A stretch of 23,226 bases of DNA from a virus, in the IMG/VR virus record IMGVR_UViG_3300025128_000353, positions 1-23,226 of that record; one strand, written 5' to 3'. Position numbers and translations under genes: made by a program. This document shows positions 1-23,226 of this stretch, piece by piece (within the stretch, counting starts at the first letter, position 1; each line of letters opens with the position of its first letter). A model generated the notes under the pieces. The model searched no databases. It had not been told where the DNA came from and saw only the letters and a program-made list of their open reading frames with translations.

Positions 1-28
1 GCCGAGAGAGTTCTGTGAAAGAACAGAC

Positions 29-334
29 ATGGGCGGCATAGAACGCGCAGGTGATATGGGCATACTCTTTTCTCACCGACCCGAACTTGAAACCGGAGAA
101 CAGTTAGAGGGCTATGTCCTTCTTCAAGGCTTTCACGGTGACGACTACTACGAATGTGAGTGCGGCAGCGTCACAACCGACGACCAAATGTGGTGGTGCG
201 ATGGCTGCGGCTCATCGGCTTGCGGCTCATGTGGCGGCAACTGTGACTGTAGAGAGTGTGCGTGCGGCGAATACTACGATAGCAACGGATGGAGTGATAG
301 CGGCAAGTGTAGCCGTTGCGAGGAGGAGGAGTGA
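29..334 (+). CDS. Cys-rich zinc-binding protein, 5' end uncertain
   Basis: The product is about 101 aa with at least ten cysteines in its second half. CECG is followed by CDGCG, then a run of CxxC and CxC pairs (SACGSCGGNCDCRECACG) and a final CSRC before a Glu tail. This spacing suggests one or two zinc ribbons or knuckles; the partner is unknown. The frame is open to the left edge of the window, so the gene may begin outside it. An alternative ATG at 56 directly follows AGGTGAT, which resembles a ribosome binding site but sits very close. It begins a tightly packed run of small genes. Confidence 0.6.
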   Translation: MGGIERAGDMGILFSHRPELETGEQLEGYVLLQGFHGDDYYECECGSVTTDDQMWWCDGCGSSACGSCGGNCDCRECACGEYYDSNGWSDSGKCSRCEEEE

Positions 335-336
335 AC

Positions 337-630
337 ATGGATGACGAAGGCAAGTGGGATAGAGAGCAACAACACCTTGACGACCACCACTACGACCTGC
401 TCCATGAGGAGCGGTTGTTGAACTGCGAGCATGAGGAATGGAAAGTCACCGAAATAGTCAATGAGAGAACTCACGGACTACGAGGAGAGAAGTTGGATGA
501 CCCAATGCTTGAAGTCGAAATAGTCTGTGAGTTTTGTGGTAAAAGTAACATGGGCGAGATACAGTTAGACTTTGTGTTGGAGTGGTTGAACCATAACACT
601 ACCCCTTACTACTACGAGGAGTGGGAATGA
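337..630 (+). CDS. Small acidic protein with CxxC motif
   Basis: Hypothetical protein of 97 aa. I place the start at ATG 337 because a strong GAGGAGGAGGAGTGA site lies just upstream; the frame also contains an earlier TTG inside that site. The N-terminal third is rich in Asp, Glu and His (QQHLDDHHYDLLHEE). A Cys-Glu-His is followed later by CEFCGKSN, which could form a small zinc site. The CxxC-GKSN segment resembles CPECFGKSN in the gene at 1624, suggesting a shared fold. Function is not recognised. Its stop overlaps the next start as ATGA. Confidence 0.6.
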   Translation: MDDEGKWDREQQHLDDHHYDLLHEERLLNCEHEEWKVTEIVNERTHGLRGEKLDDPMLEVEIVCEFCGKSNMGEIQLDFVLEWLNHNTTPYYYEEWE

Positions 631-770
631 TGCCGACCAAAAAGCAAAGAGCGGCGCAACGATGGCGATACAATCAGAAGTATAAATCGAGAGTCAAGTC
701 AGGTGAGAAAAATAGCCGACGCTTGCGTAGCGAGAAGACAAACTTCATAAGCAACAACGAGGAGGAGTAA
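627..770 (+). CDS. Very small basic protein
   Basis: A 47-aa protein starting MMPTKKQR. The first 40 residues carry many Lys and Arg residues and it ends in three Glu. The start overlaps the previous stop (ATGA at 627) and the gene ends in a GAGGAGGAG run that also serves as ribosome binding site for the gene at 773, so it fits the operon exactly. The composition would suit nucleic-acid binding, but no family is recognised. It is below usual length cut-offs and easily missed. Confidence 0.5.
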   Translation: MMPTKKQRAAQRWRYNQKYKSRVKSGEKNSRRLRSEKTNFISNNEEE

Positions 771-772
771 AT

Positions 773-1021
773 ATGAGTGAGTTATCAGGAGCAATCCAAC
801 GACTACAAGACCTACACGATGAACTAAAGCAGTTAGAGGCCGCACGCGACGCAATCTACGAGGCGTTAGACGCGCTGGAAAACGCCGAGTGTGTTTTCAG
901 CAGCACCGGACTCGGCTACTCAAGTGGTCTGTCGCATCATGCGTCAATGGAGATAGAAGAATCTCTTGCTATGGTTGATGAAAGAATCGAGGAAATAGAA
1001 GGGGCGGCTGAACAACTATGA
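773..1021 (+). CDS. Small coiled-coil protein
   Basis: An 82-aa acidic protein, almost entirely helical by composition. Residues 5-40 (IQRLQDLHDELKQLEAARDA) show heptad-like Leu and Ile spacing, as does a second segment near the C-terminus (SLAMVDERIEEIEG). A short Ser/Gly/His-rich linker separates them, giving a likely antiparallel coiled-coil hairpin that could oligomerise. A GAGGAGGAG site precedes ATG 773. Function unknown. Confidence 0.6.
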   Translation: MSELSGAIQRLQDLHDELKQLEAARDAIYEALDALENAECVFSSTGLGYSSGLSHHASMEIEESLAMVDERIEEIEGAAEQL

Positions 1022-1245
1022 GAGCAGAAACTATACCCCATGTTGAATACGAAATCTTCAATCTGATACTTGACGAGATAGATATATCTATGCTAAAAGA
1101 ACAGATGTGCCCGACAGGAGATGATGTCGCACTTACTCGCTTTGAGAAGGGCGCAGCATCGGCAGCACAACTGATACAGAATCTAATCGAGAGGCGTAAG
1201 CACAGACTGCCTCACGACCACTTAGACTACGAGGTGAAGGCATGA
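1018..1245 (+). CDS. Hypothetical protein, 75 aa
   Basis: The start is the ATGA overlap with the coiled-coil gene. The protein looks mainly helical (EIFNLILDEIDISML, then AAQLIQNLIERRKHRL). It has no cysteine cluster apart from a single Cys and no membrane segment. Translational coupling to its neighbour suggests the two products may act together. No family recognised. Confidence 0.55.
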   Translation: MRAETIPHVEYEIFNLILDEIDISMLKEQMCPTGDDVALTRFEKGAASAAQLIQNLIERRKHRLPHDHLDYEVKA

Positions 1246-1376
1246 AGGATGCACACTACTACTTACGCATCATCAAAAAGGAGTCAAGACTCTATGGTGA
1301 TACACCACGCTCAATCGCTAATATCGCTTGGGCGGAACGACAACTTCTCGATATGATAGATGGGGTGAAGGCATGA
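1242..1376 (+). CDS. Very small hypothetical protein
   Basis: A 44-aa protein beginning MKDAHYYLRIIKKESR. GAGGTGAAGGC directly upstream is a good archaeal ribosome binding site and the start overlaps the previous stop. The same GGTGAAGGC-ATG arrangement recurs at its own 3' end to start the next gene. Its regular place in the overlap chain is the main support for it being real. No function recognised. Confidence 0.5.
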   Translation: MKDAHYYLRIIKKESRLYGDTPRSIANIAWAERQLLDMIDGVKA

Positions 1377-1627
1377 TGCACTACCACTATGAATCAACCG
1401 TGACGAGAGGAGAGAGCGAGCATGAAGTTTATCTTAGGCTAAAGAAAAGAGCGCATCTTCTCTACGACGACATCATAATGAGTAAGTCATGGTTTTCATA
1501 CTCTAAGCATGACTCCCCTATCGCCATCTATACCTTCACACGCGACAGCGACCACGACCCACACTTTGAGCATCAAATAGGCAGGGGTTCATGGGAAGGC
1601 CGACATAAGGGGTTGAGTGAAGAATGA
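1373..1627 (+). CDS. Hypothetical protein, 84 aa
   Basis: The start is ATG 1373 (ATGATG), preceded by GGGGTGAAGGC and overlapping the previous stop; the frame continues further upstream but inside the preceding gene. The protein is rich in His, Tyr and Asp (MMHYHYES; DSDHDPHFEHQ), with a central Lys/Arg-rich helix. No membrane segment or known motif. The clustered His and Asp could bind metal, which is inference only. Confidence 0.5.
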   Translation: MMHYHYESTVTRGESEHEVYLRLKKRAHLLYDDIIMSKSWFSYSKHDSPIAIYTFTRDSDHDPHFEHQIGRGSWEGRHKGLSEE

Positions 1628-1848
1628 TGAAGCACATCTCTAACGGGCGCGGTAGAATATGCGGCACACCTATTCCCGAACAGGGCGAGTATGTGTCGGA
1701 TGCCGAATGGAGGAAACTATCTGAGTGCCCTGAATGTTTTGGTAAAAGTAATATCACGCTTGCGCCTCACGAACCTAAAGTTCATAAGCGTGAGGAACAA
1801 CCGACAACTACGAAGCAAGGACTATACCTGCGACAATACTTGGAGTGA
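1624..1848 (+). CDS. Small zinc-ribbon-like protein
   Basis: A 74-aa protein. A Cys at about residue 13 (RICGTP) and a CPEC pair near residue 35 are followed by FGKSN, with two His further on. This could form a small zinc knuckle. The start overlaps the previous stop as ATGA. The CPEC-FGKSN segment resembles CEFC-GKSN in the gene at 337. Partner and role unknown. Confidence 0.55.
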   Translation: MMKHISNGRGRICGTPIPEQGEYVSDAEWRKLSECPECFGKSNITLAPHEPKVHKREEQPTTTKQGLYLRQYLE

Positions 1849-1853
1849 AAAAA

Positions 1854-2072
1854 ATGGAATGGAAAAAGGGCGACAAAAAATACGAAGTATCATGGATAGA
1901 ATACTACCAATACCTTGAGGGGTTGAGGCAATCGGGCATCACTAATATGTTCGGTGCAGCCCCTTACTTGGCTGAGGCATACGCTTTGTCGCAAGGCGAG
2001 GCATCAGAAGTCTTGGTGTCTTGGATGGAGAACTACGATGCTCTCCTATCCGATGGCGTAATAGAAAGGTGA
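1854..2072 (+). CDS. Hypothetical protein, 72 aa
   Basis: I chose ATG 1854, which follows TTGGAGTGA at a suitable distance; an in-frame GTG at 1845 overlaps the previous stop and would add three residues. The product is rich in aromatic residues (MEWKKGDKKYEVSWIEYYQYL) and continues as an Ala/Glu-rich helix. No family recognised. A GGTGAAAGTA site for the next gene lies at its 3' end. Confidence 0.5.
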   Translation: MEWKKGDKKYEVSWIEYYQYLEGLRQSGITNMFGAAPYLAEAYALSQGEASEVLVSWMENYDALLSDGVIER

Positions 2073-2077
2073 AAGTA

Positions 2078-2317
2078 ATGACGGAAAGAGAAGTATGTCC
2101 TGCCGACATGAGGCATCATGGGGGTCATGTATGGGTGAGAAAAACCCTGTTCGATGTTCATGTTGGCGTGGGTGATGTGATAGTCACCGATGTTGATATC
2201 GTGTGTCTTGACTGCAACGAGCGAAGAAACATTGTATGCACTACACCGATAATCTTCTTTCAAGAACTCTTAACGGAGAACAGAAAACCCATTTGGTTGA
2301 TACCGGAGGAAGAATAA
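2078..2317 (+). CDS. Small zinc-ribbon protein
   Basis: A 79-aa protein. The start at ATG 2078 follows AGGTGAAAGTA. A beta-rich middle (HVWVRKTLFDVHVGVGDVIV) leads to CLDCNERRNIVC, a typical ribbon half-site, with another Cys at residue 7 and a His pair near residue 13. A role in binding nucleic acid or protein is plausible but not shown. It ends with TAATG, sharing one base with the next start. Confidence 0.55.
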   Translation: MTEREVCPADMRHHGGHVWVRKTLFDVHVGVGDVIVTDVDIVCLDCNERRNIVCTTPIIFFQELLTENRKPIWLIPEEE

Positions 2318-2664
2318 TGAGTAACGCAAAGAGGAATACGCGAGCAATCAAGGGCTTCACAGTTAGAGGCTGGTGGATGCTGCGTGCTGCTGCGCTCTAC
2401 CTACAAGATGTAGGAGAGGCAACTTCAAGTGAAATCTTAGCCAATGCAAGAAGTCCACCACGCCGCAAAGGACACGAAGGCTCACGCATAGACCTAAGCA
2501 GACGGGCACTATCAAGCCGCCTACAACGACACTCCTCCTTCAAGAGCAGGAAGGATGGGAAGAACAAATCCAATCCTGTTCTTTGGCGCGTCGTTGATGA
2601 TAACATTTTCTTGGAGAACCCTCACGATAAAAATACTCGTAGAATGAAGGAGTGGAAACTATGA
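2317..2664 (+). CDS. Winged-helix-type DNA-binding protein
   Basis: A 115-aa basic protein. The start at ATG 2317 is preceded by CCGGAGGAAGAATA. After a basic N-terminus, one helix (WWMLRAAALYLQDVG) is followed by EATSSEILANAR, a predicted recognition segment with SRRALSSRLQRHSSFKS, and a strand ending NPVLWRVVDD. The order helix, TSSEIL helix, LSxxLxxxxxF helix, W/Y strand matches a winged helix and recurs in six other small proteins here. Likely binds DNA; target unknown. No sequence family is assigned. Confidence 0.55.
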   Translation: MSNAKRNTRAIKGFTVRGWWMLRAAALYLQDVGEATSSEILANARSPPRRKGHEGSRIDLSRRALSSRLQRHSSFKSRKDGKNKSNPVLWRVVDDNIFLENPHDKNTRRMKEWKL

Positions 2665-2882
2665 GTATGACTGTAGATGGACTATACCACGCCATGCTTA
2701 AGTTATTGAAGGAGGGGAAGGGCGACCACGAAATCTCCGTCGCTTTCCGTTGGGAAGGCGATACGGTTCTTTCCAATATCACATCATGGTGTCTTAACGG
2801 TAAAACTATTCAACTAAATGAGGAGGACTTTGACCTCCTCCTAATTGACGAGGGGATAAAGGATGAATTGCACCGCCTGTAA
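2661..2882 (+). CDS. Hypothetical protein, 73 aa
   Basis: ATG 2661 overlaps the previous stop and follows AAGGAGTGGAAACT; a GTG at 2652 is also in frame. The product has a short helix (LYHAMLKLLKEGKGD), a beta-rich centre (ISVAFRWEGDTVLSNIT) and an acidic C-terminal region. No recognised motif. The small CxxCxGxG gene begins inside its 3' end. Confidence 0.5.
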   Translation: MSMTVDGLYHAMLKLLKEGKGDHEISVAFRWEGDTVLSNITSWCLNGKTIQLNEEDFDLLLIDEGIKDELHRL

Positions 2883-3203: not shown

Positions 3204-3248
3204 AGCATGACCGAAGCCTTTAAGTGTGCTAACTATGTCGGAGATAAT

Positions 3249-3721: not shown

Positions 3722-3723
3722 TT

Positions 3724-4790: not shown

Positions 4791-4832
4791 AAAAAGAAAA
4801 AAATGCTTGACTGCGCCCCACTTTTCTAATTC

Positions 4833-4895: not shown

Positions 4896-4963
4896 AAAAT
4901 AAGGAATAGGCTCGCAGTATAGCGGTTTATTCTTTTCACGCTTGCGCCACGAAATAAAAATAA

Positions 4964-11284: not shown

Positions 11285-12181
11285 ATGCTTTGGGCAAACA
11301 AGCACAGACCGACCTCCTTCGATGACCTCGTAGGCGGGGCTAAGTCACTCGACCATCTTGCTACGAATATGCAGCACCTCTTGCTACACAGCAAGGGCGC
11401 AGGAACGGGCAAGACTACGCTTGCTCATGTCTTGGCTAACACCCTTGACTACCCACTCCATGTATTCAATGCTTCCTCCAAGAAAACGCGAGGCATAGCG
11501 TTTGTAGAGGAGGAGTTGATACCTCTTACACGCGCAGGAAACTACAAGCAGATAATCCTGCTCGATGAAGCCGACCAACTAACACCCGAAGCGCAGTCGG
11601 CATTGAAGGGAGTCATTGAAAACGCACAGGGCTTCTTCATCCTCACCTGTAATGATATCAGGAAGGTTAGCAAGTGGATTCAATCTCGCTGCCTAACCAT
11701 AGAGTTCAGACCAATAGGTAGAAAATCAATGATGGAGCGACTACAACATATATGTGGAGCAGAAGGTGTGAAAATCACCGAGAGTCAGTTGAATCTTATA
11801 TGTGACGCGCATGAGGGCGACCTAAGAAACGCCATCAATACACTTCAAGCCTATGATGGACTATACGACCCTAATTCTAACGCGGCCCGAAGGTTCATAC
11901 TCAGTCTTGCTGAACATGACTTTGATGCTTATACCTTCCTCAAGGTGTGTATGGTGGAGAAGGACTTACTTTACGCTAACATTATGTTGTCCGACGCTTA
12001 TGATGCTCGGTCTGCGGTGCGCTCCGTGTTTGAGGAAGGCGTAGCAGGAACTAAAGCACCACTTTCAGATAACAAGAAACTCCAAGTCGTTGATGCTGCA
12101 ATCACAGCCGAGCGCGATATCCTAAGCGGTGTTGATGAAGATATTGTTTGGGCTAACTTCGTGAGGATGCTGATAGCATAG
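11285..12181 (+). CDS. rfcS: Clamp loader, replication factor C small subunit
   Basis: A 298-aa AAA+ ATPase of the RFC small-subunit family, which opens the PCNA ring and loads it on primed DNA. The RFC N-terminal signature is intact (WANKHRPTSFDDLVG). Walker A is GAGTGKTT (38-45), Walker B ILLDEAD (90-96), sensor 1 TCND (121-124), the arginine-finger motif SRC (134-136), and sensor 2 GDLRNAIN (178-185). A C-terminal helical collar follows. Length is close to cellular RFCS (about 320 aa). No large subunit is seen, so it may form a homo-oligomer, pair with host RFCL, or use an unrecognised viral partner. It is transcribed from its own promoter. Confidence 0.92.
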   Translation: MLWANKHRPTSFDDLVGGAKSLDHLATNMQHLLLHSKGAGTGKTTLAHVLANTLDYPLHVFNASSKKTRGIAFVEEELIPLTRAGNYKQIILLDEADQLTPEAQSALKGVIENAQGFFILTCNDIRKVSKWIQSRCLTIEFRPIGRKSMMERLQHICGAEGVKITESQLNLICDAHEGDLRNAINTLQAYDGLYDPNSNAARRFILSLAEHDFDAYTFLKVCMVEKDLLYANIMLSDAYDARSAVRSVFEEGVAGTKAPLSDNKKLQVVDAAITAERDILSGVDEDIVWANFVRMLIA

Positions 12182-12229: not shown

Positions 12230-13405
12230 ATGAGTGACGAAATGCTGAACAATATAGCCAAGACATTGAATGTCGCGCCGGAAGCGGTGCGAGAGAGGGC
12301 AGATACTGTCCTCGCAGAACAAGGCCCTGCATGGAAGAATGCGGGTCGCTCCGATGAGGACTGCTTTATTCTCGCGTTGAGAGTAGCAGGAAGAAACATT
12401 ACGAGCGAGAATGCCCGAATGCGCCGAGCAGGTGCTGATACATACGAGGGTATGTTCCTGTCTGTTCCACGCCCGAAGGAGTGGGGTAAGATACTCTACA
12501 ACAAGATGAAGAATCAAATGCTAAATGCGTCTGCCGAAGTTCGTCAGACCCTTGTTGATAGCGGCGCAGTAGTGCTGTTTGAGAACAACAACGATGGAAC
12601 ATACACGCGCCTTGCTGATGAAAAGTTCGGCTTCGGTGCAGAATCCGATGTATCATCGCTACCAAAGCACACAATGCAGTTAGATGCTAACACACACTTC
12701 TATGTTGTGTGGGATAAGACTAACGCGACCTTCCCAAGTGGAGATGCTAACTTCAAGTATGGCGCTCCACGACCACAGGATGAGCGCGAGCGTTCAAGTC
12801 TGTTCTTTGGTCGCCCACAGGGAACTGATGGGCAACCACAGGTATTCAATGTAAGCGGTAATGGAAAGGCGGCTGACCGAAAGTTCCCTACCTTCATACC
12901 ACTAACCATACCAATGAAGACAGGTAAGAATAACCGATGCTACCTCAATGCAGATGTATCAGTTCATACTGTAGATGAAACACTATCGTCTATCTTTAGT
13001 GGCTCTCCACTTGATATGCTACCTGCTATCATTGGTGACGAGAATATGCTACCTGACTTGGCGGCTATCGGTCAATACTACGACACACACAACGGCACAG
13101 CCGGATGGTGGGATAGAAACTGCGCTACTGTAGTTGAAGTAATCCACATTGACCCACGCGAAAAGGGCGGTTCAATCCTTGTCTGTGGCGACACCGCTAT
13201 AGAGTCAATGGCTGGAACCATAGATGTATATTGCGATGATGTTCCTTCATTCGGTGTTGGAACCAAACTACTAATCTTAGGCCAAGCATGGCGCAGTCGT
13301 GAGGGCGAAGACCGCCTGAGCGTCAATGGCTGGTGGGCCTTCGATGAGATAGCCGCGCTGGTTGAGCCTGACTTTGGTGATAGCAGCGACGGGTGGGAAG
13401 CGTGA
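12230..13405 (+). CDS. RPA-like single-stranded DNA-binding protein
   Basis: A 391-aa soluble protein. The N-terminal 80 residues are helical (NNIAKTLNVAPEAVRERAD), then GADTYEGMFLSVPRP begins a longer beta-rich region. The last 150 residues look like an OB-fold with strand-rich segments (NCATVVEVIHIDPREKGGS; IDVYCDDVPSFGVGTKLLIL). The C-terminus is acidic (EPDFGDSSDGWEA), as in many ssDNA-binding proteins that recruit partners through an acidic tail. Its position between clamp loader and recombinase/clamp genes fits a replication SSB. There is no RPA zinc finger. Identification rests on composition and context, not on a signature motif. Confidence 0.55.
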   Translation: MSDEMLNNIAKTLNVAPEAVRERADTVLAEQGPAWKNAGRSDEDCFILALRVAGRNITSENARMRRAGADTYEGMFLSVPRPKEWGKILYNKMKNQMLNASAEVRQTLVDSGAVVLFENNNDGTYTRLADEKFGFGAESDVSSLPKHTMQLDANTHFYVVWDKTNATFPSGDANFKYGAPRPQDERERSSLFFGRPQGTDGQPQVFNVSGNGKAADRKFPTFIPLTIPMKTGKNNRCYLNADVSVHTVDETLSSIFSGSPLDMLPAIIGDENMLPDLAAIGQYYDTHNGTAGWWDRNCATVVEVIHIDPREKGGSILVCGDTAIESMAGTIDVYCDDVPSFGVGTKLLILGQAWRSREGEDRLSVNGWWAFDEIAALVEPDFGDSSDGWEA

Positions 13406-13716
13406 GTAGGGCTTGGAAGGCTTTAGGCGACTTCATCATTCTTGCGAAAGATGAAGTTAAAAGTAACTCAGGACTTATCCTCGACGCTCATTACATTGTA
13501 GCGAGTGTCGGCGGGTTTGTTCCTGTAGATATTGAGTGTGGCGAAGTTGTTGTCCTAAGTGACGACGCAGAACTGACTCACATAGAGCCTTCCAACCCGA
13601 ACTCACCTTGCGCTGTTCATTACAGTAAGATATGTGCTACATCTCTTGGTGATGACGAGCCGGACTACATTGAAATGCACGAAGAACCACTTGCTATTAT
13701 GGAAGTAGAACTATGA
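13402..13716 (+). CDS. groES: GroES-like co-chaperonin
   Basis: A 104-aa protein starting at GTG 13402 (GTGA overlap, GGGTGG upstream). It aligns by eye with GroES: ALGDFIILAKDEVKSNSGLIL corresponds to the first strands and mobile loop, where SGLIL matches the GroES GG-IVL segment that docks into GroEL. IVASVGGFVP and IECGEVVVLSDD match the barrel strands, and EEPLAIMEVEL the C-terminal strand. An insertion near residues 60-90 makes it longer than the usual 95 aa. It lies immediately before, and is coupled to, the GroEL gene. It should cap the chaperonin ring. Confidence 0.75.
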   Translation: MSRAWKALGDFIILAKDEVKSNSGLILDAHYIVASVGGFVPVDIECGEVVVLSDDAELTHIEPSNPNSPCAVHYSKICATSLGDDEPDYIEMHEEPLAIMEVEL

Positions 13717-15278
13717 ACACACTAATAACAGGAGCGGAGGCCCGCTCAAAACTACTTGTCGGTGTGAATAAAGTCGCTAATGCGGTGAAGGGAACCTTCG
13801 GCCCGCAAGCCCGAACAGTAATCATTCAGAATCCTATGGGTATGCCCGTCATTCTCAATGACGGTGTGACTATCGCACGCGCTGTGCATGATAACGACCC
13901 GTATGTGCAGATGGGAATAGACCTTCTAAAAGAAGTCGCTTCCGAAGCACAGGAGAAGTCCGGCGACGGAACAACGAGCGCAACTCTCATAGCACAGACG
14001 CTATGTAATGGTTCGCTTTCTTTGATGGAGGAGGGGGTATCGCCTCTCCGTATTAGGGATATGTTCAAGGATTTGTTAGAAAAAACAGAAACTTATCTTC
14101 ATAATACAGTAATAGAGGACTTTGACCTAACGGCTGTTGCTACAATAGCGGCTAACAATGATAGAGAACTCGGTGATATGATAGCAGGTGTAGTGAAGAA
14201 TGCTGGTAAGGATGGCGGCATCACTATTGAGAAGTCGCTAACAGGTGAAACCTATGTGCGCGACTCAAACGGTATTGAAATAAATGCTGGTTATACTCAC
14301 GCTCTTATGGCTAACTCGCCACGCGGCAAGTGTGAGTTTGATAACGCATTAGTTCTCACTACTACTGAAAAGATATCCACCTTCAATGCTTTAGTTCCTG
14401 TGCTTGAAATAGCAGTAAAGGAGAATAAACCATTGGTTATATTCTGTTCAGATTTCAACGCTATAATGTTGCAGAATCTTTTGGTAAATATAGTGCAGGG
14501 TAAAGTGTCTGTCTGTATGGTAAAGCCTTCGGGAATGCCTCAACAACAACAGGCATGGCTTGAAGATATTTCAGCCGCCGTTGGCTCAAAATTATTCAAG
14601 GTATCTCTCAATGAGAGTATGGTAAATGTAAGTAATGATGATTTGGGTTCTTGTGAGAAGTTTATATCAAGTCAGACTACTACCACTCTTACGCTAAAAG
14701 AAAACGCGAACATATACCACTTAGAGCATCTAAAAGATATGGCTAACAACGAAACTAATGATTGGTTGAAGGAACAGTATCATAATCGCTACTCACGACT
14801 AACAACAGGTATCTCCACCATTTATGTTGGAGGTGCTTCCGAAGTAGAGCAGGTAGAAAGGAAGGAGCGGGTAGATGACGCAGTAAATGCGTGCAAACTC
14901 GCTCTTGACTCCGGTGTAGTCATCGGCGGTGGCGCAGAACTTTTCCGCGCCACAGAATACCTACAGGACATTACTCCTGAGAATGAGGATAACATAATCA
15001 GCGACTTATTCTACAAAGGTCTTACTACTCCACTTGAAACTATCGTAGAAAATGCTGGTAAAAGTATTCAGTTTAAGTATGGAGATATTGGCGACTTAGA
15101 TGAAGATGACTTCTTTAACACAGGGTATGTCTGTGGTAAGACAGGCGAATACCGATGCGCTCTTGAAGATGGCGTGCTTGACCCTATGCAGGTTGTCTTG
15201 AACAGTCTTGAAAGCGCGGTGTCTATCGCTGCGTTGGTTTTGATGACCGATGCCGCAATCATAGCACCTGAGCAATAG
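13713..15278 (+). CDS. groEL: GroEL-like group I chaperonin
   Basis: A 521-aa protein of the GroEL (group I) family that folds proteins in an ATP-driven cage. Equatorial ATP-site motifs are intact: VKGTFGPQARTV (25-36), NDGVTIA (49-55; D50 matches E. coli D52), GDGTTSAT (84-91; D85 matches D87), and RVDDAVNA with GVVIGGGAEL (D388/D389 match the D398 region). It is slightly shorter than bacterial GroEL (about 545 aa) and ends in TDAAIIAPEQ, lacking the Gly-Gly-Met tail. The apical domain is the most divergent part. It starts by ATGA overlap with GroES. Archaea normally use the group II thermosome, so a bacterial-type pair in an archaeal-type replicon is notable. It might fold capsid or tail proteins (inference). 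Confidence 0.93.
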   Translation: MNTLITGAEARSKLLVGVNKVANAVKGTFGPQARTVIIQNPMGMPVILNDGVTIARAVHDNDPYVQMGIDLLKEVASEAQEKSGDGTTSATLIAQTLCNGSLSLMEEGVSPLRIRDMFKDLLEKTETYLHNTVIEDFDLTAVATIAANNDRELGDMIAGVVKNAGKDGGITIEKSLTGETYVRDSNGIEINAGYTHALMANSPRGKCEFDNALVLTTTEKISTFNALVPVLEIAVKENKPLVIFCSDFNAIMLQNLLVNIVQGKVSVCMVKPSGMPQQQQAWLEDISAAVGSKLFKVSLNESMVNVSNDDLGSCEKFISSQTTTTLTLKENANIYHLEHLKDMANNETNDWLKEQYHNRYSRLTTGISTIYVGGASEVEQVERKERVDDAVNACKLALDSGVVIGGGAELFRATEYLQDITPENEDNIISDLFYKGLTTPLETIVENAGKSIQFKYGDIGDLDEDDFFNTGYVCGKTGEYRCALEDGVLDPMQVVLNSLESAVSIAALVLMTDAAIIAPEQ

Positions 15279-15308: not shown

Positions 15309-16256
15309 ATGAGTTGGGGAACGCAAGCACCTGAACAGAAGGCCAAGCCTAAGACCGTAGAACCTAAGATGCAATTTGATGAAGCATACTATAGGAACTT
15401 ATTTGAGAACAACCGCACGAACACTATCACGCATAGATGTGCGCTCGTAGGACATGAGAACACCCTCAAGACAGGGCTTGCTCTTTCGTTCCTTGAGCCT
15501 GAAATTAGTGCTGGTAAGAAGGTGTTTGTTTTTGATATAGACAACTCCGCGAAGCCAACCATAGACCACATCTACCCTAACAATGAGAATGTTGTTGTTC
15601 TTCCACTACAAGATGAAACAGATGACTCCATCTTTGATGAGGATAACAATGTAGATTACAAAGCACTTCTTGATAAGACCGCATACTATGTGAATATCCT
15701 TGCTGAGAAGGTCAAGGCTGACCCCGACTCCGTTGGTGGTGTAATCTTTGATGGCGGCTCTACTTTCCTAAAGTGGTGCGAACACGCTATGCGTGCTTCA
15801 CTACTTGCGCGGGGAGTCATTGAGGAAGAAAGCGATACTTTCAATCAGAAGGAATGGCGCGAGCGTAACAGGCTTTATCGTAATATCCTAACACGACTAC
15901 ACAGCCTCAATGTTCCCAAAGTGTATTTCATCTTCCACCTAAAGCCCGTATCACAGTATATGGATGACGGAACAGGTAAGAAGATTCTTATGACTGTCGG
16001 CCATAGGCCGGAGTGGGATAAGGGAACTATGAGAAAGTTCTCTCAACAGATATTCCTATCTCGACACATGAAAAAGGCTGACTTAGCCGCAGGTGTCGAA
16101 GGCGACAGAAACCTCAAGGATGACGAATGGGTTGTTCGTGGTAAGGTAGAGGAGATGAAGGGCGACCACATTGAAAAGGTTGGTTCAACCTATGATATTG
16201 CCCGCATTTCAAAGGGTAAGTTCGACTTCATCGGCCTTGAGTGGATGAAGGAGTAA
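15309..16256 (+). CDS. RecA-fold ATPase, Sak4-like recombinase
   Basis: A 315-aa protein of the RecA/RadA-like core ATPase type seen as Sak4 (AAA_24) in phages, where it helps strand annealing or exchange with SSB. The Walker A region is CALVGHENTLKTGLAL (about 44-59), with K54 and T55 but Leu instead of Gly before the Lys. The Walker B strand is VGGVIFDGGST. A strand ending YFIFHLKPVSQY fits the RecA core sensor region. The N-terminus has a short disordered Lys/Pro segment. It leads an operon with the clamp and PolB, after the ssDNA-binding protein operon. The family is fairly clear; recombination versus clamp/helicase accessory function is not. Confidence 0.65.
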   Translation: MSWGTQAPEQKAKPKTVEPKMQFDEAYYRNLFENNRTNTITHRCALVGHENTLKTGLALSFLEPEISAGKKVFVFDIDNSAKPTIDHIYPNNENVVVLPLQDETDDSIFDEDNNVDYKALLDKTAYYVNILAEKVKADPDSVGGVIFDGGSTFLKWCEHAMRASLLARGVIEEESDTFNQKEWRERNRLYRNILTRLHSLNVPKVYFIFHLKPVSQYMDDGTGKKILMTVGHRPEWDKGTMRKFSQQIFLSRHMKKADLAAGVEGDRNLKDDEWVVRGKVEEMKGDHIEKVGSTYDIARISKGKFDFIGLEWMKE

Positions 16257-16261
16257 TACTC

Positions 16262-17101
16262 ATGTCTATTGTTGTTGAAACTGAATCCCTCAAGTGGCTA
16301 CTTTCGTTAATGCAACGGAAGCAGACTATTGACGGTAAAAGTATTACACAGGTTCATTCCCTGTCTTTGAAGACAGAAGGAAGCAGACTTGTTGGTTGCA
16401 CGCGAGTAAAGGATGGCGTGACCTCCCTTATGCGACTCTCTATACCCTGTAGCGGCGAAGGGGAGTTCGTGCTTACAGATATTGAGGCTGCTCTTGGAGT
16501 TCTCAAGTATCACGGAGGCGCACTACGCCTCACACCAAGCGAAGATAAGGTTAAGTTCAAGTCAAGTGGTAAGCAGACAACGCTTGCCGCGAATAAGGAG
16601 GCGAGAGCATTTCCTCACACACCCGAAACTATAGCAATTTGGACTGAAAAGTCACATAGTCTTGCGGAAAAAATAGATGCAGATAATATGCAGTATAACA
16701 CCAACGACGGACAATGTTTAGATGTGGTCGTGTGTCTTTCAGATATTAGCACCACCACTCTTTACGAAGCATTCCGGTGTGACTCTATGAATGGGCAAAA
16801 GTTCAACAAATACACTATGGAGTATACAGGTGGAGAACTAACCATCACAGTAGGTGATGAATTGAAGGGTAAAACTACTACTCAGATGAACAACATTGTT
16901 CATTCCTATGTGGATTTACCCGAACACGATGCACCGGACATAAAGGCGACCTACAATGGTGGTCTTGAATATATTTTCCATCATCTTAACAACGATGTTA
17001 ATATCGGTGTGTGGGATTTTACCCATGTAGGTATGGGCTATCCTATGCTTATCACTCTTGGTGACGGTGACTTCATTTTCCAAGCATCAAACGAGGCATA
17101 A
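16262..17101 (+). CDS. pcn: PCNA-like DNA sliding clamp
   Basis: A 279-aa protein. ATG 16262 follows GAAGGAGTAATACTC; an earlier in-frame ATG falls within the ATPase gene. Alternating strands and short helices across two similar halves, without catalytic motifs, fit a processivity clamp. The C-terminal segment GLEYIFHHLNNDVNIGVWDF, then GYPMLITLGDGDFIFQAS resembles the PCNA end, where a helix and strand lead to the P-x-x-x-x strand and final YxLAP-like strand. Length is a little above the usual 245-260 aa. Presence of RFC small subunit and PolB supports the call. Sequence similarity is modest. Confidence 0.65.
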   Translation: MSIVVETESLKWLLSLMQRKQTIDGKSITQVHSLSLKTEGSRLVGCTRVKDGVTSLMRLSIPCSGEGEFVLTDIEAALGVLKYHGGALRLTPSEDKVKFKSSGKQTTLAANKEARAFPHTPETIAIWTEKSHSLAEKIDADNMQYNTNDGQCLDVVVCLSDISTTTLYEAFRCDSMNGQKFNKYTMEYTGGELTITVGDELKGKTTTQMNNIVHSYVDLPEHDAPDIKATYNGGLEYIFHHLNNDVNIGVWDFTHVGMGYPMLITLGDGDFIFQASNEA

Positions 17102-17588: not shown

Positions 17589-17755
17589 GTGTAGAGTCGC
17601 CCTTTATGTCTTGCCTCAACTGTGGCGCAAAGTTCTCCTTTGTGTTTGTTGATAGCATATCAGAAGGCGACATATACGAGTGCGAGTTTTGTAATAACAT
17701 AAAACTAAAGAGATATCCTCAAGAAGAAACAGAAGTGATGGAGTATGATAATTGA
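17585..17755 (+). CDS. 56-aa zinc-ribbon protein
   Basis: It starts at GTG 17585 (GTGA overlap) or, less likely, at ATG 17606. CLNCGAKFSF and CEFCNN form two CxxC half-sites about 24 residues apart, the classic zinc ribbon. It overlaps the polymerase start by 11 nt. Similar ribbons often mediate contact with DNA, RNA polymerase or replication proteins. Specific role unknown. Confidence 0.6.
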   Translation: MSVESPFMSCLNCGAKFSFVFVDSISEGDIYECEFCNNIKLKRYPQEETEVMEYDN

Positions 17756-19988
17756 ACGCTCAAGAGGTAGAGATGTTATCATACGAGGTCGTGATGCTTC
17801 CGGTGAAAGATATGAAAAAACTATCAAGGGCCATTGGCCCTATTGCTTCGTGAGAAGTGAGGATGCTCAGTATGTCGCTGAGGCGGTCAGAACTGAGGAA
17901 GGATTCACCGGACTATACGGTGAAGAACTCACTAAGATAATTTGCGCCACCGACTATGATGTAAAACAGGTAGGTAAGAGGGAGCAGACATGGGAAGGTA
18001 ATCTTTCCTATCCTAACCAAGTTCTTGCCGACCACATCAATGAGGGTAACGAACCAATAGAGAACTACAAACACCGAACATGGTATCTCGATGCTGAATG
18101 GTCGCCAGCCACAGGAAAACTCCGGTGTATCGTGGTCTATGATAACTTCAAGGAAAAAGAATATGTGTGGTTTATCGAACATGGTTTAGGTAATATCTTA
18201 GGGGAAACACCGAAGGATGGTGTGCCTACACCATACAGTAAATATGGCGACTACGAATATGAAACCCCCGCTATGGCCTTTCCTAATGAACGGTCTATGC
18301 TAATCCACTTTCTAAGACACATGAAGGCGTGCGACCCCGATATCATCACAGGGTGGTTCGTGGTCGGTGCTGATATCAAGACAATAATGGAAAGATGTCG
18401 CGCCAATGGTTTGTCTGAACTATCTCTTTCACCAATGAGGAAAGTTAGATATGAGTTCAAGGATTGGGCACAGCCCATAGTTGGTCGCAACTGTATAGAC
18501 TTGATGGTTGCAGTATCGAAGTTGTGGGAATTGAAGAATGGAAAATTACCCTCATACAAACTCGATGATGTAGCCTTTGAAATCTTAGGGGAAAAGAAAG
18601 TCGAACTTGAAGATGGGCACGACACATGGTTCAGCGATACTCCACTATACCTACACTACTGCCGACAAGATGTGCGGCTGCTGCCCAAGTTAGATGAAGC
18701 AGTCAATGCTCTCGACTACTACACATCGCTACAACACATCGTTCAATGCGATATTCGTTCAACTCCTTTCATCACTAAAATGTTCTCACAATTAGTCCTC
18801 ACAGACCCTGACTTCGACAGGAGGCTACCCTCCAAACCACAGTTCGATAAGGTAGATTATGAGGGTGCTGAAATCTTAGAGGTAGAGCCAGCCGTGTATG
18901 AGAATGTCGGTATCTTAGATATTCGCGCCATGTATCACAGTAATGCCGGTAAATATAACATTTCATGGGAAACCCTTGATGAGAACGGGCATGACTGTGG
19001 TAATGGAACTAAGTTCTCCCAAGATAACAAGGGTCTTCTTGTAAGACAGATGGAAAAGATGACCGAACTACGAAATATATTCAAGGTGAAAATGTTTGTT
19101 AGTGATGGTGCGGAGAGAAGGAAGTGGGATGGTATGCAATTTGCCGCTAAGACGCTTGTTGCTTCAATGTATGGAGTGGCTGGTGATGCTAAGTATGGTC
19201 TGTATCACCCTGATATAGCCGCAGCCATCACCTACACTTCTCGACACACATTGGGTGAGTTAATGGTGGAAGCACAGCGCGTCGGCTTCAATGTAATTTA
19301 CGGTCATACTGACTCAGTATTCTGTGAGATACCTACGCCCGAAGCGGGGTTGGAACTTCTACCCGAAATCAATGAGAGAATGTCGCCAATCGTAGTAGAG
19401 TTTGAGAAGTGGTGTCCTCGACTAATCATGGTGGCGAAGAACCGCTATACAGGAATGGTGACTTGGACTGATGGAGAGTATCAAGAGCCTCAAATGTATG
19501 TGAAGGGTATCGAGATGAAACAATCAAGAATGCCTCCGGTGATGAAAGAGGCCATGAACAACACCATTTCAGGCATACTAAATGGCGAATCAGAAATCGT
19601 TATCACAGCGCGAAATGAAGCCCTAATTGACTCAATAATGGGGGGTAAAATAGACCCACTAAAATTGTGTATGAAAGGGAAGATAGAACGCGACCTATCT
19701 AACTACAAAGTTCTCTCCGGTTCTTCTGCTGGCGCGGCTTGGGCCAACGAATATCTCGGTAAGGGTTATCGTAAAGGTTCTTTCTTCCTCGTTACGATTA
19801 ACGATAAGGGAAAATATATTGCCTTTGACGACCCGAAGGAAATTGACGGTATAACTAACATAGGAAATAGAATACTCGTAGATAGATTCATCATCAAAAA
19901 ACTAACACCCTACTATAGTTTGGCTGGTTGGAACACGCAGCCTCTTGAAAATGTGAAAAATGGTATTGGTGATGTGTTGTGGGTATAG
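17745..19988 (+). CDS. polB: Family B DNA polymerase with 3'-5' exonuclease
   Basis: A 747-aa replicative polymerase. Exonuclease carboxylates are present: Exo I WYLDAEW (D116, E118), Exo II PDIITGWFVVGAD (D210) and Exo III YCRQD (D309). Exo II has lost its usual Asn and Phe. The polymerase domain has motif A LDIRAMYHS (D392, steric-gate Y397; the usual Pro is His), motif B KTLVASMYG (K469, Y476, G477; usual Asn is Ala) and motif C YGHTDS (D523 kept; the first Asp of YGDTDS is H521). The essential acids remain, so activity is expected. It is much like archaeal PolB in size. GGAGT lies before ATG 17745. Clamp upstream and primase downstream complete a replisome. Confidence 0.93.
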   Translation: MIIERSRGRDVIIRGRDASGERYEKTIKGHWPYCFVRSEDAQYVAEAVRTEEGFTGLYGEELTKIICATDYDVKQVGKREQTWEGNLSYPNQVLADHINEGNEPIENYKHRTWYLDAEWSPATGKLRCIVVYDNFKEKEYVWFIEHGLGNILGETPKDGVPTPYSKYGDYEYETPAMAFPNERSMLIHFLRHMKACDPDIITGWFVVGADIKTIMERCRANGLSELSLSPMRKVRYEFKDWAQPIVGRNCIDLMVAVSKLWELKNGKLPSYKLDDVAFEILGEKKVELEDGHDTWFSDTPLYLHYCRQDVRLLPKLDEAVNALDYYTSLQHIVQCDIRSTPFITKMFSQLVLTDPDFDRRLPSKPQFDKVDYEGAEILEVEPAVYENVGILDIRAMYHSNAGKYNISWETLDENGHDCGNGTKFSQDNKGLLVRQMEKMTELRNIFKVKMFVSDGAERRKWDGMQFAAKTLVASMYGVAGDAKYGLYHPDIAAAITYTSRHTLGELMVEAQRVGFNVIYGHTDSVFCEIPTPEAGLELLPEINERMSPIVVEFEKWCPRLIMVAKNRYTGMVTWTDGEYQEPQMYVKGIEMKQSRMPPVMKEAMNNTISGILNGESEIVITARNEALIDSIMGGKIDPLKLCMKGKIERDLSNYKVLSGSSAGAAWANEYLGKGYRKGSFFLVTINDKGKYIAFDDPKEIDGITNIGNRILVDRFIIKKLTPYYSLAGWNTQPLENVKNGIGDVLWV

Positions 19989-20776
19989 ATTATGTGGTTA
20001 TGTATTCAGGGGGGGTCACTTCCTTTGAGGCCGCACGACGCGCCATAGAAAAACACGGTAAAGATAATGTTCGCCTGTGGTTTGCAGACACTCTTATTGA
20101 AGATGAGGACTTGTATAGATTCAACGATGATGTCGAAGAATATCTCGGTGTTGATATAGAGGTTATCAGCGAGGGCCTATCCGTATGGGATGTGTTTTTC
20201 AAAGAGAGATTTATTGGTAATACACGCGCAGACCCCTGTAGTAAGATTCTAAAGAGGGAGGCCCTACGCAAAAAACTCAAGAAGGAATACCCGAACCCCG
20301 ATGATGTCGTGGTGATTCTCGGTATGGATGATATCGAGGATTGTAATAGGTGGAAGGCGGCGGAGAAGGCACAGGCCCCCTATTCTGTGTGGTTCCCGTT
20401 GATGGATGGAGAGTCAATGATGAAAACTGATATTATTCGGTGGCTTCAAGAAAATGATATTGAGCCTCCAAGACTATACAAGATGGGATTCAAACACAAT
20501 AACTGTGGTGGCTTCTGTGTTAAGGCGGGGTTAGGGCAATTTGCTCACCTGTATAAGACAATGCCTGAAAGGTATGCTTACCATGAAAATAAGGAGGAGG
20601 AGTTTAGAGAGTTCATTGGAAAGGATGTGTCTATATTGAGAGATAGGCGGAATAATACCACAAAACCTCTAACGATGCGCCAATTGAGGGAGAGAATTGA
20701 TGCTGGCGAGTCCTTTGCGTATGATAGTGATTGGTCTTGTATGTGTTTTGTAGTAATAGAAGATGAGTGGTTATAG
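19979..20776 (+). CDS. PAPS-reductase/ATP-pyrophosphatase-family protein
   Basis: A 265-aa protein. It starts at GTG 19979, inside the PolB 3' end; GTG 19994 and ATG 20000 are alternatives. YVVMYSGGVTSFEAA carries the PP-loop SGGxxS (10-15) typical of PAPS reductases and ATP pyrophosphatases, which adenylate a substrate. Cysteines at 87 (DPCSK), 122, 176 and 180 (NCGGFC) and a CMC near the C-terminus could bind a metal or Fe-S cluster. Phage homologues are common and are linked to sulfur metabolism or DNA/RNA modification such as phosphorothioation (DndC). The overlap with PolB hints at genome modification, which is inference. Confidence 0.7.
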   Translation: MGIDYVVMYSGGVTSFEAARRAIEKHGKDNVRLWFADTLIEDEDLYRFNDDVEEYLGVDIEVISEGLSVWDVFFKERFIGNTRADPCSKILKREALRKKLKKEYPNPDDVVVILGMDDIEDCNRWKAAEKAQAPYSVWFPLMDGESMMKTDIIRWLQENDIEPPRLYKMGFKHNNCGGFCVKAGLGQFAHLYKTMPERYAYHENKEEEFREFIGKDVSILRDRRNNTTKPLTMRQLRERIDAGESFAYDSDWSCMCFVVIEDEWL

Positions 20777-20781
20777 AACAG

Positions 20782-20789
20782 TTTATATG
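20782..20789 (+). promoter_or_regulatory. TATA-box-like promoter of the nuclease-primase operon
   Basis: ACAGTTTATATGTGTAGTG lies just after the stop at 20776 and 30 nt before ATG 20812. It is almost identical to the copies at 11256, 12182 and 15279. GAGAGGTGAATGAATT before the ATG is a ribosome binding site, so translation need not be leaderless. Confidence 0.7.
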
Positions 20790-20811
20790 TGTAGTGAGAG
20801 GTGAATGAATT

Positions 20812-21114
20812 ATGAGCAAGAAAGCGAGTCAAGAAGACTTTGAGAACTTCGTAAAGGAAGTAGCCCATGTGATTTCAATAATGGGTGCAGATGTAATGAA
20901 AATGCAGACTATCATGTATAACCTGCTTGATGAGATGGGTAAGGTAGAGAAGCCTTCCTGTGTATCATGTAAGGAAACACTTTTGATACCTATTGTGCAG
21001 AATGTAGATAGGAGCGATGTATGCCCCAACTGTGGAGAAAATATCTACGGTGACGAACAGACCACATTTGAATCGTGGGATGAAGGCATAACAATAGGTG
21101 GCGAAGAAGAATGA
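20812..21114 (+). CDS. Helical protein with C-terminal zinc ribbon, 100 aa
   Basis: GAGAGGTGAATGAATT precedes ATG 20812. Residues 5-45 are helical with heptad-like hydrophobics (FENFVKEVAHVISIMGADV), a possible coiled coil. CVSCKETLLIPI and CPNCGENIYG give a standard two-CxxC zinc ribbon, followed by an acidic tail. It leads the operon with the Cas4-like nuclease and primase. A dimeric zinc-ribbon adaptor is plausible; no named family. Confidence 0.6.
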   Translation: MSKKASQEDFENFVKEVAHVISIMGADVMKMQTIMYNLLDEMGKVEKPSCVSCKETLLIPIVQNVDRSDVCPNCGENIYGDEQTTFESWDEGITIGGEEE

Positions 21115-21124
21115 TGGTGAAAGT

Positions 21125-21976
21125 ATGCGAGCAACACCCGAACAATCAACAACCTCGTCTTACATCCCTATAGACAACGGTATTCTACGCATCAGTAAGT
21201 CCTCTCTAATGGGCTACAAGATGTGCCCCCGACAGTTCTATTGGGGATATGTAGCAGATATACCGCGCCCTCCCGCTACTGAGGAGATGATACGCGGAAC
21301 TCATATTCACACGGTCATGGAAGCAGGTTTGCTTGAAGGGCCGGACATGATGATGCCTACTGCTGTAGAGCAAGGGGTAGAGGAAGATGAGGGCGTAGAT
21401 TCTCTCAATCTATTACTCCATCAGATAGCCGCAGATATTGGAGGCTTTGATGTAGTCGAGGCTGAGGTAAAGCATGAGGTCTTTGAGGTGTTTGACGGAC
21501 ACGAAATAGTGTGGGTCGGACTCATTGACGGAGTTCTTCGTCATCCTGAAACCGGAGGCTTGATTCTCGTTGAACTTAAGACGGGAAATATGAACATGGG
21601 TAAGTTGGGTAGAACAAGAAAGGAGTTGGTGTATTATGCACGACTTCTTCGTAAATTGGGGTATGATGAGGTGACTCACTTCCTCTATGTGACTCCCGAC
21701 TACGAAGTGCCGGAGGACAAAGACGACAAACTTCTGTATGAAGGAAACAAAAGGGGTAAAACTATGTGGCTTGGGCCGGAGCGCGGATTCGCTCTTTTAG
21801 AGCCGTTCTTGGAACGCTCTTATAATGCCTTTGAGGAATCATTATACGACACTATTGAATCATTAACTTCCCATGTATGGACTATGAAATGGAATGATTA
21901 TTTCTGTCCTATGTGGTGTGACTTTTCTTTGAATTGTGAAGCAGAATTAAGTGGTATAAGCGGGTGGAGTGTATGA
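21125..21976 (+). CDS. Cas4/RecB-like PD-(D/E)XK nuclease with Fe-S cysteines
   Basis: A 283-aa protein. I chose ATG 21125 after GGTGAAAGT; an upstream GTG is in frame. The order of motifs is that of Cas4-type exonucleases: SKSSLMGYKMCPRQFYW with C34, then RGTHIHTVMEAG (His of motif I, H60 or H62), VGLIDGVL (D135), LVELKTG (E150, K152), an YYARLL helix, and a C-terminal cluster with C261, C265 and C271. Four such Cys bind a 4Fe-4S cluster in Cas4 and AddB. The enzyme would resect DNA ends. No CRISPR array is present, so recombination or replication is the likely context, with the ssDNA-binding protein and Sak4-like ATPase as partners. Confidence 0.8.
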   Translation: MRATPEQSTTSSYIPIDNGILRISKSSLMGYKMCPRQFYWGYVADIPRPPATEEMIRGTHIHTVMEAGLLEGPDMMMPTAVEQGVEEDEGVDSLNLLLHQIAADIGGFDVVEAEVKHEVFEVFDGHEIVWVGLIDGVLRHPETGGLILVELKTGNMNMGKLGRTRKELVYYARLLRKLGYDEVTHFLYVTPDYEVPEDKDDKLLYEGNKRGKTMWLGPERGFALLEPFLERSYNAFEESLYDTIESLTSHVWTMKWNDYFCPMWCDFSLNCEAELSGISGWSV

Positions 21977-22140
21977 GTAGAGCAGGGTCATCAAGAGTAT
22001 TTATCGTATGTGCCGCTTGCGGTAAGGATGATGCTTGGGAAGGCTCGGAGAAGGTTTGGAGAGTTAATGGGCAAGAGGGTTCAGCCCCCGAAGAAGTGCT
22101 GATTTATGGTTGCGAATGCGGTAATCAACAGGCCGCGTGA
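21973..22140 (+). CDS. 55-aa zinc-ribbon protein
   Basis: The start overlaps the nuclease stop (ATGA). The sequence begins MSRAGSSRVFIVCAACGKDD and ends CECGNQQAA, with a CxxC and a CxC half-site about 30 residues apart. It lies directly before the primase. Archaeal and eukaryotic primases often rely on zinc-binding partners, but nothing here shows a contact. No family assigned. Confidence 0.55.
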   Translation: MSRAGSSRVFIVCAACGKDDAWEGSEKVWRVNGQEGSAPEEVLIYGCECGNQQAA

Positions 22141-22144
22141 TACC

Positions 22145-23158
22145 ATGTCTTTTCTCTTTCCCCGCGAGATAGGTCTGCGACGCACTCTTTGCGAAACCCG
22201 CGACGAGTTCGATAACTATATCTCAAAAGTAAATGGGAAGGCTTCATGTTATACTTCCCTTTATTCTTTTGAAAGACGCGATGAGATACGAACATGGAAA
22301 ATGGATGTGGAGTCTGTAGTTATGGATAGAGCGTGGTGGGATTTCGATATGTTAGAGGGTGGAACCCTTGATGATGTTAAGAAGGATGTTACCGAACTAC
22401 TAAAGAGAATAAACACAAATGAGCGTGTGGCTCTTGGGCGAGAAATAAGAATAGTCTTTACAGGTAGGGGATTTCATGTTCATCAGTTCTTTGATAAGCC
22501 TGTGAAGGGAACAGCCATAGCAAAGCACATAGACCGCTACCAAAGGCTACAGGCGCGAGGGCTAAGAACACTTGATGGTGTAGGCTTCCCTCAGAAACTC
22601 ACACGCATTCCTGATACTTACAATCCAAAGAGAGGTAGGTGGGCTGTGAATATAGACCCCATGAGTTTTTATCTTAATCCTAACTATGAAATACCTATAG
22701 AACCATTACAGGAACTCAAGATTTACGACCCATATACAGGTCATAGTGCTATTGACGGCTTCAACATTAGGGCGTGGATAGCAAACAACCCCGCCCAAGA
22801 ACAGGAGCATCAGGGAGAGTTCAATGGTGAGATTGGTTCTGCCGGACAGATACCTATTCCTCCCTGCTTACAGAAGGCAATACACCAAGACAACCCTAAA
22901 CATACGGTAAGAATAGCATTGACTCAACACCTCGCAGAAAATCTGCGTTGGTTTGCTCACCCATCTACACTAACGCCCGAACAACGAACACAATGTATAG
23001 AAACAATAGTGGCGTTTATGTCGAAGTTGAATTGGAGAGATTACAACGAAAGCACTACACGATTCCATGTTAAGAGTATCATAGATTATGAACACGCCCC
23101 TACTAAGTGCGTAGTGGATGCTGGCCCATGTTGGGCGCATGACGGAGTAAAGCGGTGA
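22145..23158 (+). CDS. priS: Archaeo-eukaryotic primase small subunit (PriS-like)
   Basis: A 337-aa AEP-family primase that makes primers for the polymerase. ATG 22145 is preferred; ATG 22106 would overlap the preceding zinc-ribbon gene by 35 nt. The catalytic DxD is WWDFDML (D66, D68). The nucleotide-binding sxH motif is FTGRGFHVHQFF (105-116, H111/H113). The third acidic site falls in RIPDTYNPKRGRWAVNID (D171), matching the usual R-x-P-x-S-x-H-x-K-T-G region. No large subunit or PriCT-type zinc domain is fused, and no helicase is fused. The C-terminal 100 residues are helical and may bind a partner. Confidence 0.85.
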   Translation: MSFLFPREIGLRRTLCETRDEFDNYISKVNGKASCYTSLYSFERRDEIRTWKMDVESVVMDRAWWDFDMLEGGTLDDVKKDVTELLKRINTNERVALGREIRIVFTGRGFHVHQFFDKPVKGTAIAKHIDRYQRLQARGLRTLDGVGFPQKLTRIPDTYNPKRGRWAVNIDPMSFYLNPNYEIPIEPLQELKIYDPYTGHSAIDGFNIRAWIANNPAQEQEHQGEFNGEIGSAGQIPIPPCLQKAIHQDNPKHTVRIALTQHLAENLRWFAHPSTLTPEQRTQCIETIVAFMSKLNWRDYNESTTRFHVKSIIDYEHAPTKCVVDAGPCWAHDGVKR

Positions 23159-23162
23159 TATT

Positions 23163-23226
23163 ATGATGCTAAAAGAACAAGAAATAAAGGACATGAAAGA
23201 ACACGGAAAATGTGTGACTTGTAAAG
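23163..23226 (+). CDS. Truncated CxxC protein at the right edge
   Basis: GCGGTGATATT precedes ATG 23163 and the frame stays open to the end of the window. The visible 21 residues (MMLKEQEIKDMKEHGKCVTC plus a Lys) include a first CxxC, probably half of a zinc ribbon or other zinc site. The rest lies outside the window. Confidence 0.5.
   Translation, partial: MMLKEQEIKDMKEHGKCVTCK

Follow-up and report, generated by a model that had tools for sequence, protein, structure and literature searches.

Why should 23,226 nucleotides of viral DNA contain not a single GATC, GTAC, CTAG, AGCT or ACGT? The question is raised by IMG/VR record IMGVR_UViG_3300025128_000353, whose positions 1 to 23,226 were analysed here in full and are called the window. 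The avoidance of restriction sites by phages is textbook knowledge and usually concerns a single site or a small number of sites in each phage. An initial annotation of the window, made by a model from the letters alone, had listed these five palindromes and ascribed their absence to selection by several restriction specificities in the host community or, failing that, to a shared property of the host genome. The words missing from the window turn out to be more numerous than that list, and they are very probably host restriction endonuclease sites that have been purged from an unmethylated lytic virus, which thereby avoids the pooled specificities of its host population.

Words missing from the window

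Exact counting gives 0 copies for each of the five tetramers, which are the only absent ones among all 256. A first-order Markov model predicts 72–102 copies of each. Synonymous-codon shuffling, in which the proteins and codon usage stay fixed and 7,285 codons (94% of the window) take part, predicts 77.5 copies of GATC, 64.5 of GTAC, 59.8 of CTAG, 82.4 of AGCT and 65.4 of ACGT (60–82 in round figures), and the minimum among 200 shuffles is 41–65 copies, depending on the word. These are the two comparisons that the initial annotation had suggested, and its remarks on codon choice hold equally well. Gly before Thr is written GGA 23 times, GGC 4 times and GGT 0 times, even though GGT is used more often than any other Gly codon in total (189). 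For Asp ahead of a codon beginning with C, GAC is used in 55 cases and GAT in 0, with GAT the commoner codon overall (294 vs. 193), and Glu-Leu is encoded as GAA-CTN (27), GAG-TTR (12) or GAA-TTR (5) and never as GAG-CTN (0). The other palindromic tetramers that had been named as present do all occur, and CATG, GGCC, GCGC, CGCG and CCGG lie near expectation; AATT, TTAA, TCGA and TGCA, however, are reduced to 0.46–0.67 of the shuffle value.

The list of five was correct but too short. An unbiased search of gapped and ungapped words reveals at least 13 further word classes at exactly 0 on both strands. They are TGWCA and TGSCA (together TGNCA), CCWGG and CCSGG (together CCNGG), CASTG and CCNNGG, as well as the asymmetric words CAGAG, GAGAC, CCAGA, CCAGT, CCCAG, GGGAC and GGACG, and the shuffles predict 8–40 copies of each of these pentamer and gapped classes. 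The asymmetric words CCAGA, CCAGT, CCCAG, CAGAG, GAGAC, GGGAC and GGACG are counted separately because relatives of the virus lose each of them separately. Against the shuffles and on both strands, RAATTY (0 vs. 24.6 expected), GAAGAG (0 vs. 22.7) and CTGAAG (0 vs. 11.8) are missing too, and GGWCC is found 2 times vs. 15.9 expected. CCAGNT was dropped as an extra missing word, since it is implied by CCAG[AGT] and AGCT.

Six-base palindromes are depleted to a similar extreme: 54 out of 64 are absent vs. 1.2 expected, and their total occurrences amount to 0.13 of expectation. Even the 41 that contain no core already known to be missing occur only 46 times vs. 214 expected, and GATATC (15 vs. 12.6 expected), ATATAT (11 vs. 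10.0) and CTATAG (7 vs. 7.4), all three at normal frequency, account for 33 of those 46 occurrences. Palindromes are in excess among the absent words at each length, with 5/16 palindromic tetramers vs. 0/120 non-palindromic pairs (Fisher p = 1.2e-5), 5/32 palindromic pentamers vs. 7/460 others (p = 5e-4) and 33/43 palindromic hexamers vs. 40/1820 others (p = 1e-41). A nuclease or a constraint on replication that acts against short palindromes as such would explain why they dominate the missing words, but it does not fit the untouched GATATC, ATATAT and CTATAG, nor the purging of asymmetric pentamers, and the relatives described below bear on it further.

Chance and base composition are rejected as explanations by order-1, order-2 and order-3 Markov models and by the shuffles, in which the depleted words lie far below expectation with proteins and codon usage fixed. 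The same greedy procedure that found the missing words in the window finds zero in 20 order-1 and 20 order-2 simulated windows. Selection on codons or messenger RNA, or an artefact of assembly or binning, is an explanation with next to no probability left and has already been refuted. The layout of the genes on a single strand could in principle impose a codon bias, but shuffles that keep codon usage bring back all of the words. Moreover, neither strand holds the asymmetric words, even though the long genes of the window all lie on the + strand, which argues that selection acts on double-stranded DNA and not on mRNA or codons. As for an artefact, the same style of purging recurs in independent contigs of different metagenomes, and simulations matched in composition show none.

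Word lists of related viruses

The family B DNA polymerase of the window (17745..19988) served as the marker for finding relatives. Searches with it recovered 27 related contigs, 20 of which were scored together with the window for 33 words. In 21/21 contigs AGCT and CCWGG are missing or almost so, as is GATC in 18/21, and avoidance varies for CTAG and CAGAG (14 contigs each), GTAC and TGWCA (13 each), GTSAC (4) and GCGC (1). The state of avoidance is close to all-or-none: among the 534 motif-by-contig cells with an expectation of at least 20, 170 have no copy at all, and the majority of the rest exceed half the expected number.

Close relatives can differ sharply in what they avoid. The sister contigs G009 and G010 are fully different for CAGAG and for GTAC (120/135 observed over expected in G009 vs. 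0/105 in G010), and GGGAC, at 0/33 in the window, is present at 9/13 in G002, whose polymerase is 92% identical. On the polymerase tree, CTAG requires 4 changes of state, GTAC 5, and GAGAC and CCAGT 6 each. Such differing lists mean that composition or protein content cannot explain the missing words. G010 (L035, L036) is also the sole one of the 21 without GCGC, and it lacks CGCG, GGAGT, CAACT and GCWGC; its list as a whole is quite unlike that of its sister.

The removal of sites proceeds mostly through synonymous codons. At shared codons of the polymerase gene, 12 out of 15 sites of G003 and 18 out of 29 sites of G004 are gone in the window while the amino acids are the same. Over 9.2 kb, 111 substitutions separate the window from its nearest relative; placed at random, these would give about 20 avoided sites, and the actual number in that relative is 1. 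This test uses the comparison with L002 only, as the one with L003 is confounded by GGGAC, which is not avoided in L003, and by clustered changes.

Searches with the clamp-loader and GroEL proteins of the window widened the sample to 66 non-redundant contigs of at least 12 kb each. Zero counts are found for CCWGG in 63 of them, for GATC and AGCT in 61 each, for ACGT in 29, and for CTAG and GTAC in 19 each; all five tetramers of the initial annotation are missing together in 6. The median frequency of six-base palindromes is 0.31 of expectation, and CGCG is wholly absent from 19 out of 53 wider virus contigs. The style of purging is therefore common to the clade and the word lists differ, with GATC, AGCT and CCWGG avoided nearly universally. 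A pressure against palindromes in general fares poorly here as well: GGCC, CATG and TGCA are at zero in none of the 66 contigs, and relatives spare palindromes other than those spared by the window (TCATGA, GAATTC, CAATTG and AATATT). We regard it as highly improbable.

Under the same procedure, the window yields 17 missing words, followed, among cultured control viruses, by the haloviruses HF2 (14), HRTV-7 (12) and HVTV-1 (11). Fewer are obtained for HTVC010P (8; AT-rich), KHP30 (7), T7 (4), Cellulophaga Calle_1 (3) and lambda (2), and none for phiCh1, Vibrio pv27 or Flavobacterium immuto (0 each).

Gene content and candidate hosts

The genes of the window that bear on its identity are as follows:

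11285..12181, + strand: clamp-loader ATPase, closest to the archaeal RFC small subunit (Pfam AAA and RFC lid)
13393..13716, + strand: putative co-chaperonin GroES (from its size and its position directly upstream of GroEL)
13713..15278, + strand: group I-type chaperonin GroEL (PF00118, E = 6e-49; phrog_5725 GroEL, E = 1.5e-100)
16241..17101, + strand: protein without assignment, in the place expected for a sliding clamp
17745..19988, + strand: family B DNA polymerase (PF00136, E = 1e-29)
19979..20776, + strand: PAPS-reductase-like/SspD-like nucleotide alpha hydrolase (PF01507, E = 5e-10; PADLOC SspD, E = 3e-11)
21098..21976, + strand: PD-(D/E)XK nuclease, Cas4-like (PF12705, E = 1e-8; PADLOC Cas4, E = 2e-7)
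22106..23158, + strand: conserved protein, possibly a primase (62%-identical homologue in the relative G016)

The best PDB matches of the clamp loader are the RFC small subunits 2chq, 2chg and 1iqp, and its match to the RFC small subunit in NCBIfam falls below the cut-off. GroEL passes the NCBIfam cut-off for the subfamily PRK12849. Its neighbour is probably GroES, judging from size and place, with zero family matches in Pfam and NCBIfam; the protein at 16241..17101 has no match in Pfam, PDB or NCBIfam. The G016 homologue of the possible primase weakly matches the archaeal primase large subunit (PF04104, E = 0.005, below the cut-off). The best cultured relatives of the polymerase are tailed viruses of Halorubrum, with 24–25% identity.

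Magroviruses (Magrovirales, Aoguangviridae) are uncultured, tailed marine viruses of Poseidoniales that encode a family B polymerase, an RFC small subunit, a primase, GroEL and GroES (PMC10768690). Since a family B polymerase, an RFC-small-subunit-like clamp loader and GroEL are all found in the window, to which a putative clamp, GroES and primase may be added, its gene content fits a magrovirus-like virus with archaeal-type replication genes. It would thus be an uncultured tailed virus, probably with archaeal hosts, and the magrovirus likeness points to a marine origin. Poseidoniales or their near kin would be the candidate hosts. tRNA genes, sought as a clue to the host, were not found.

The virus family might also avoid the sites of its own sequence-specific nucleases, used to destroy host DNA. 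The window does encode a PD-(D/E)XK nuclease, and the longer relative G016 (68 kb), which has terminase and portal genes, encodes an ERCC4-type nuclease. However, the former resembles Cas4/RecB-type enzymes and not a restriction enzyme, the latter belongs to a repair fold, and about 18 specificities would call for an equal number of enzymes, and these are not seen; this explanation is very improbable. Two side observations may be added. The SspD model matched by the protein at 19979–20776 belongs to a phosphorothioation-based defence, and similar proteins are found in ordinary phages, such as ninC of lambda. G016 also encodes a long collagen-like protein with a GPTG repeat near the structural genes (L041 1–1995, − strand).

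Whether the host chromosome itself lacks the missing words was assessed in 19 pieces (20 kb each) of Poseidoniales genomes. The genomes were picked by means of a 16S probe sequence specific for the group. Of the five tetramers, only GATC (0.42 of expectation) and AGCT (0.46) are strongly depleted in these pieces, and neither is absent. By contrast, CTAG (1.01), GTAC (1.28), ACGT (0.77), CCWGG (0.78), CCAGA (1.04), CCAGT (1.17) and six-base palindromes (0.86) are not markedly reduced. A virus that copied the signature of its host, with the words avoided through mutation bias, repair or amelioration and no restriction, would account for two of the three words missing in nearly all of these viruses. 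Yet GTAC, CTAG, ACGT, CCAGA, CCAGT and the six-base palindromes, at 0.77–1.28 of expectation in the host pieces, are absent or almost absent from the window, and sister viruses are sharply unlike in their missing words. The shared chromosomal property offered by the initial annotation as its second option thus fails for most words; it is largely refuted for them and, as a general explanation, highly unlikely. The partial depletion of GATC and AGCT would be the expected trace of common restriction systems in the hosts. CGCG stands at 0.44 of expectation in the Poseidoniales pieces (L145–L164), and CGCG methylation has been reported for a marine group IIA genome (PMC9516812).

Purging by host restriction enzymes is favoured because the sites are removed from both strands, palindromes are in excess, the route is synonymous and the lists of relatives differ. 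Among the proteins of the window, which is a genome fragment, a motif scan found no methyltransferase motif, so a virus of this kind would be protected by having no sites. As one unmodified site would be enough for cutting, selection would push each site class to exactly zero and hold it there, with sites being lost mainly through synonymous changes. A single host genome would hold few restriction systems and the host population many, quickly exchanged, and a virus lineage in contact with many host strains would then have to avoid the pooled set. Since single host genomes appear poor in restriction systems, selection more likely comes from the combined repertoire of many strains. The list of missing words would in this way form a barcode of the specificities recently encountered by a lineage, with GATC, AGCT and CCWGG shared by nearly all lineages and others by some. 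Regarding methyltransferases in the viruses themselves, scanning 563 predicted proteins of the virus contigs for motifs gave 6 candidates, and Pfam confirmed 1 of them, an N6/N4 DNA methyltransferase in the relative G020 (L021 712–1863; PF01555, E = 7e-50).

Several results weigh against this explanation or against these hosts. Relatives of the viral polymerase are found in 0/319 Poseidoniales genomes, an absence that says little if the virus is lytic, and 390 genomes of the phylum give only 10 distant matches (E about 1e-41 to 1e-46). Enzymes of the DpnII and MjaI families are found in 0/311 Poseidoniales genomes by family searches, and those of the MvaI/BcnI family in only 3/254. The N6/N4 methyltransferase family is present in 63/116 genomes, mostly as one copy, and the cytosine methyltransferase family in 15/116. 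Most avoided words are thus without a cognate enzyme in the surveyed Poseidoniales, and TGNCA, CCAGA, CCCAG and GGACG are not known to be the sites of any enzyme. Finally, a published survey found no avoidance of Type I or IIG sites and little of Type III sites (PMC6286503), so that the asymmetric words here would be Type IIS sites or else an exception to the rule.

Support for a connection to particular enzymes covers at most one specificity. One of the three MvaI/BcnI-family enzymes, in the Poseidoniales genome G260, is closest to R.MvaI, whose specificity is CCWGG, and adjoins a methyltransferase. Many Poseidoniales genomes contain one high-scoring N6/N4 DNA methyltransferase, such as that of G028 (C1:378608–379270; L328 4363–5319), which has no obvious restriction enzyme beside its gene and might perhaps target one of the universally avoided words. 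Selection by restriction enzymes, as the initial annotation had proposed, nevertheless remains by far the best fit. Its "several specificities" pointed in the right direction but were too modest, as about 18 or more are required for the window alone.

Precedents and meaning

The closest precedent is found in the HF1-group haloviruses (Hafunaviridae), which include HF1, HF2, Serpecor1, Hardycor2 and HRTV-7. GATC and CTAG are fully absent from their genomes, HRTV-7 also lacks AGCT, and 21 six-base palindromes are absent in the entire group, which the authors credit to diverse host defences (PMC7230728). The study covered palindromes and GGWCC and stated that it did not focus on non-palindromic words (PMC7230728). 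Like the window, these are tailed viruses with a family B polymerase and purged short words, and their hosts are archaeal. In the first 23 kb of HF2, six-base palindromes stand at 0.07 of expectation and 14 independent words are missing, but AGCT, ACGT and GTAC, all three absent from the window, are retained at 0.8–1.65 of expectation. The window further differs from HF2 in the absence of seven asymmetric pentamers, in its apparently marine rather than hypersaline origin and in its clade: at only 24–25% polymerase identity to the best haloviruses, it falls outside the HF1 group. Beyond the words seen named in that study, the same stretch of HF2 (L057) lacks CASTG (CACTG/CAGTG), GAGACC, GCWGC (GCAGC), CTCTTC and CCWGG, and GAGACC, CTCTTC and CACTG are avoided both in HF2 and in several marine contigs.

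Among bacteriophages, Type II sites are under-represented or eliminated in unmodified, non-temperate phages such as T7, which resemble the window in this respect (PMC6286503). Only 3.9% of genome–site pairs were eliminated in that survey, which covered cultured viruses, and avoidance chiefly concerned orthodox Type II enzymes (PMC6286503). For magroviruses, no report of restriction-site avoidance was found in the open literature, the coverage of which is incomplete, with subscription papers lying outside the search. The window represents the same kind of phenomenon as the HF1 group in a different clade. What is new is the breadth of the purging, the asymmetric sites, which are of a kind with little or no avoidance in the large survey, and the lineage-specific barcodes.

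A single fragment of 23 kb avoids at least 18 words in addition to the majority of six-base palindromes, and each of dozens of related contigs has its own avoided set, a pattern suggestive of viruses that encounter many host strains. If restriction is the cause, the viruses record which defences uncultured marine microbes possess at the population level, virus trees could be used to measure how fast specificities turn over, and unknown enzyme specificities could be proposed from sequence alone. It is possible, although we put it forward only tentatively, that the missing words of the whole clade form a readable, lineage-specific record of the pooled specificities of the hosts, including asymmetric ones and enzymes that are not yet known (TGNCA, CCAGA, CCCAG and GGACG). 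If so, the barcodes would predict the "restrictome" of uncultured hosts and might be used to assign viruses to host populations.

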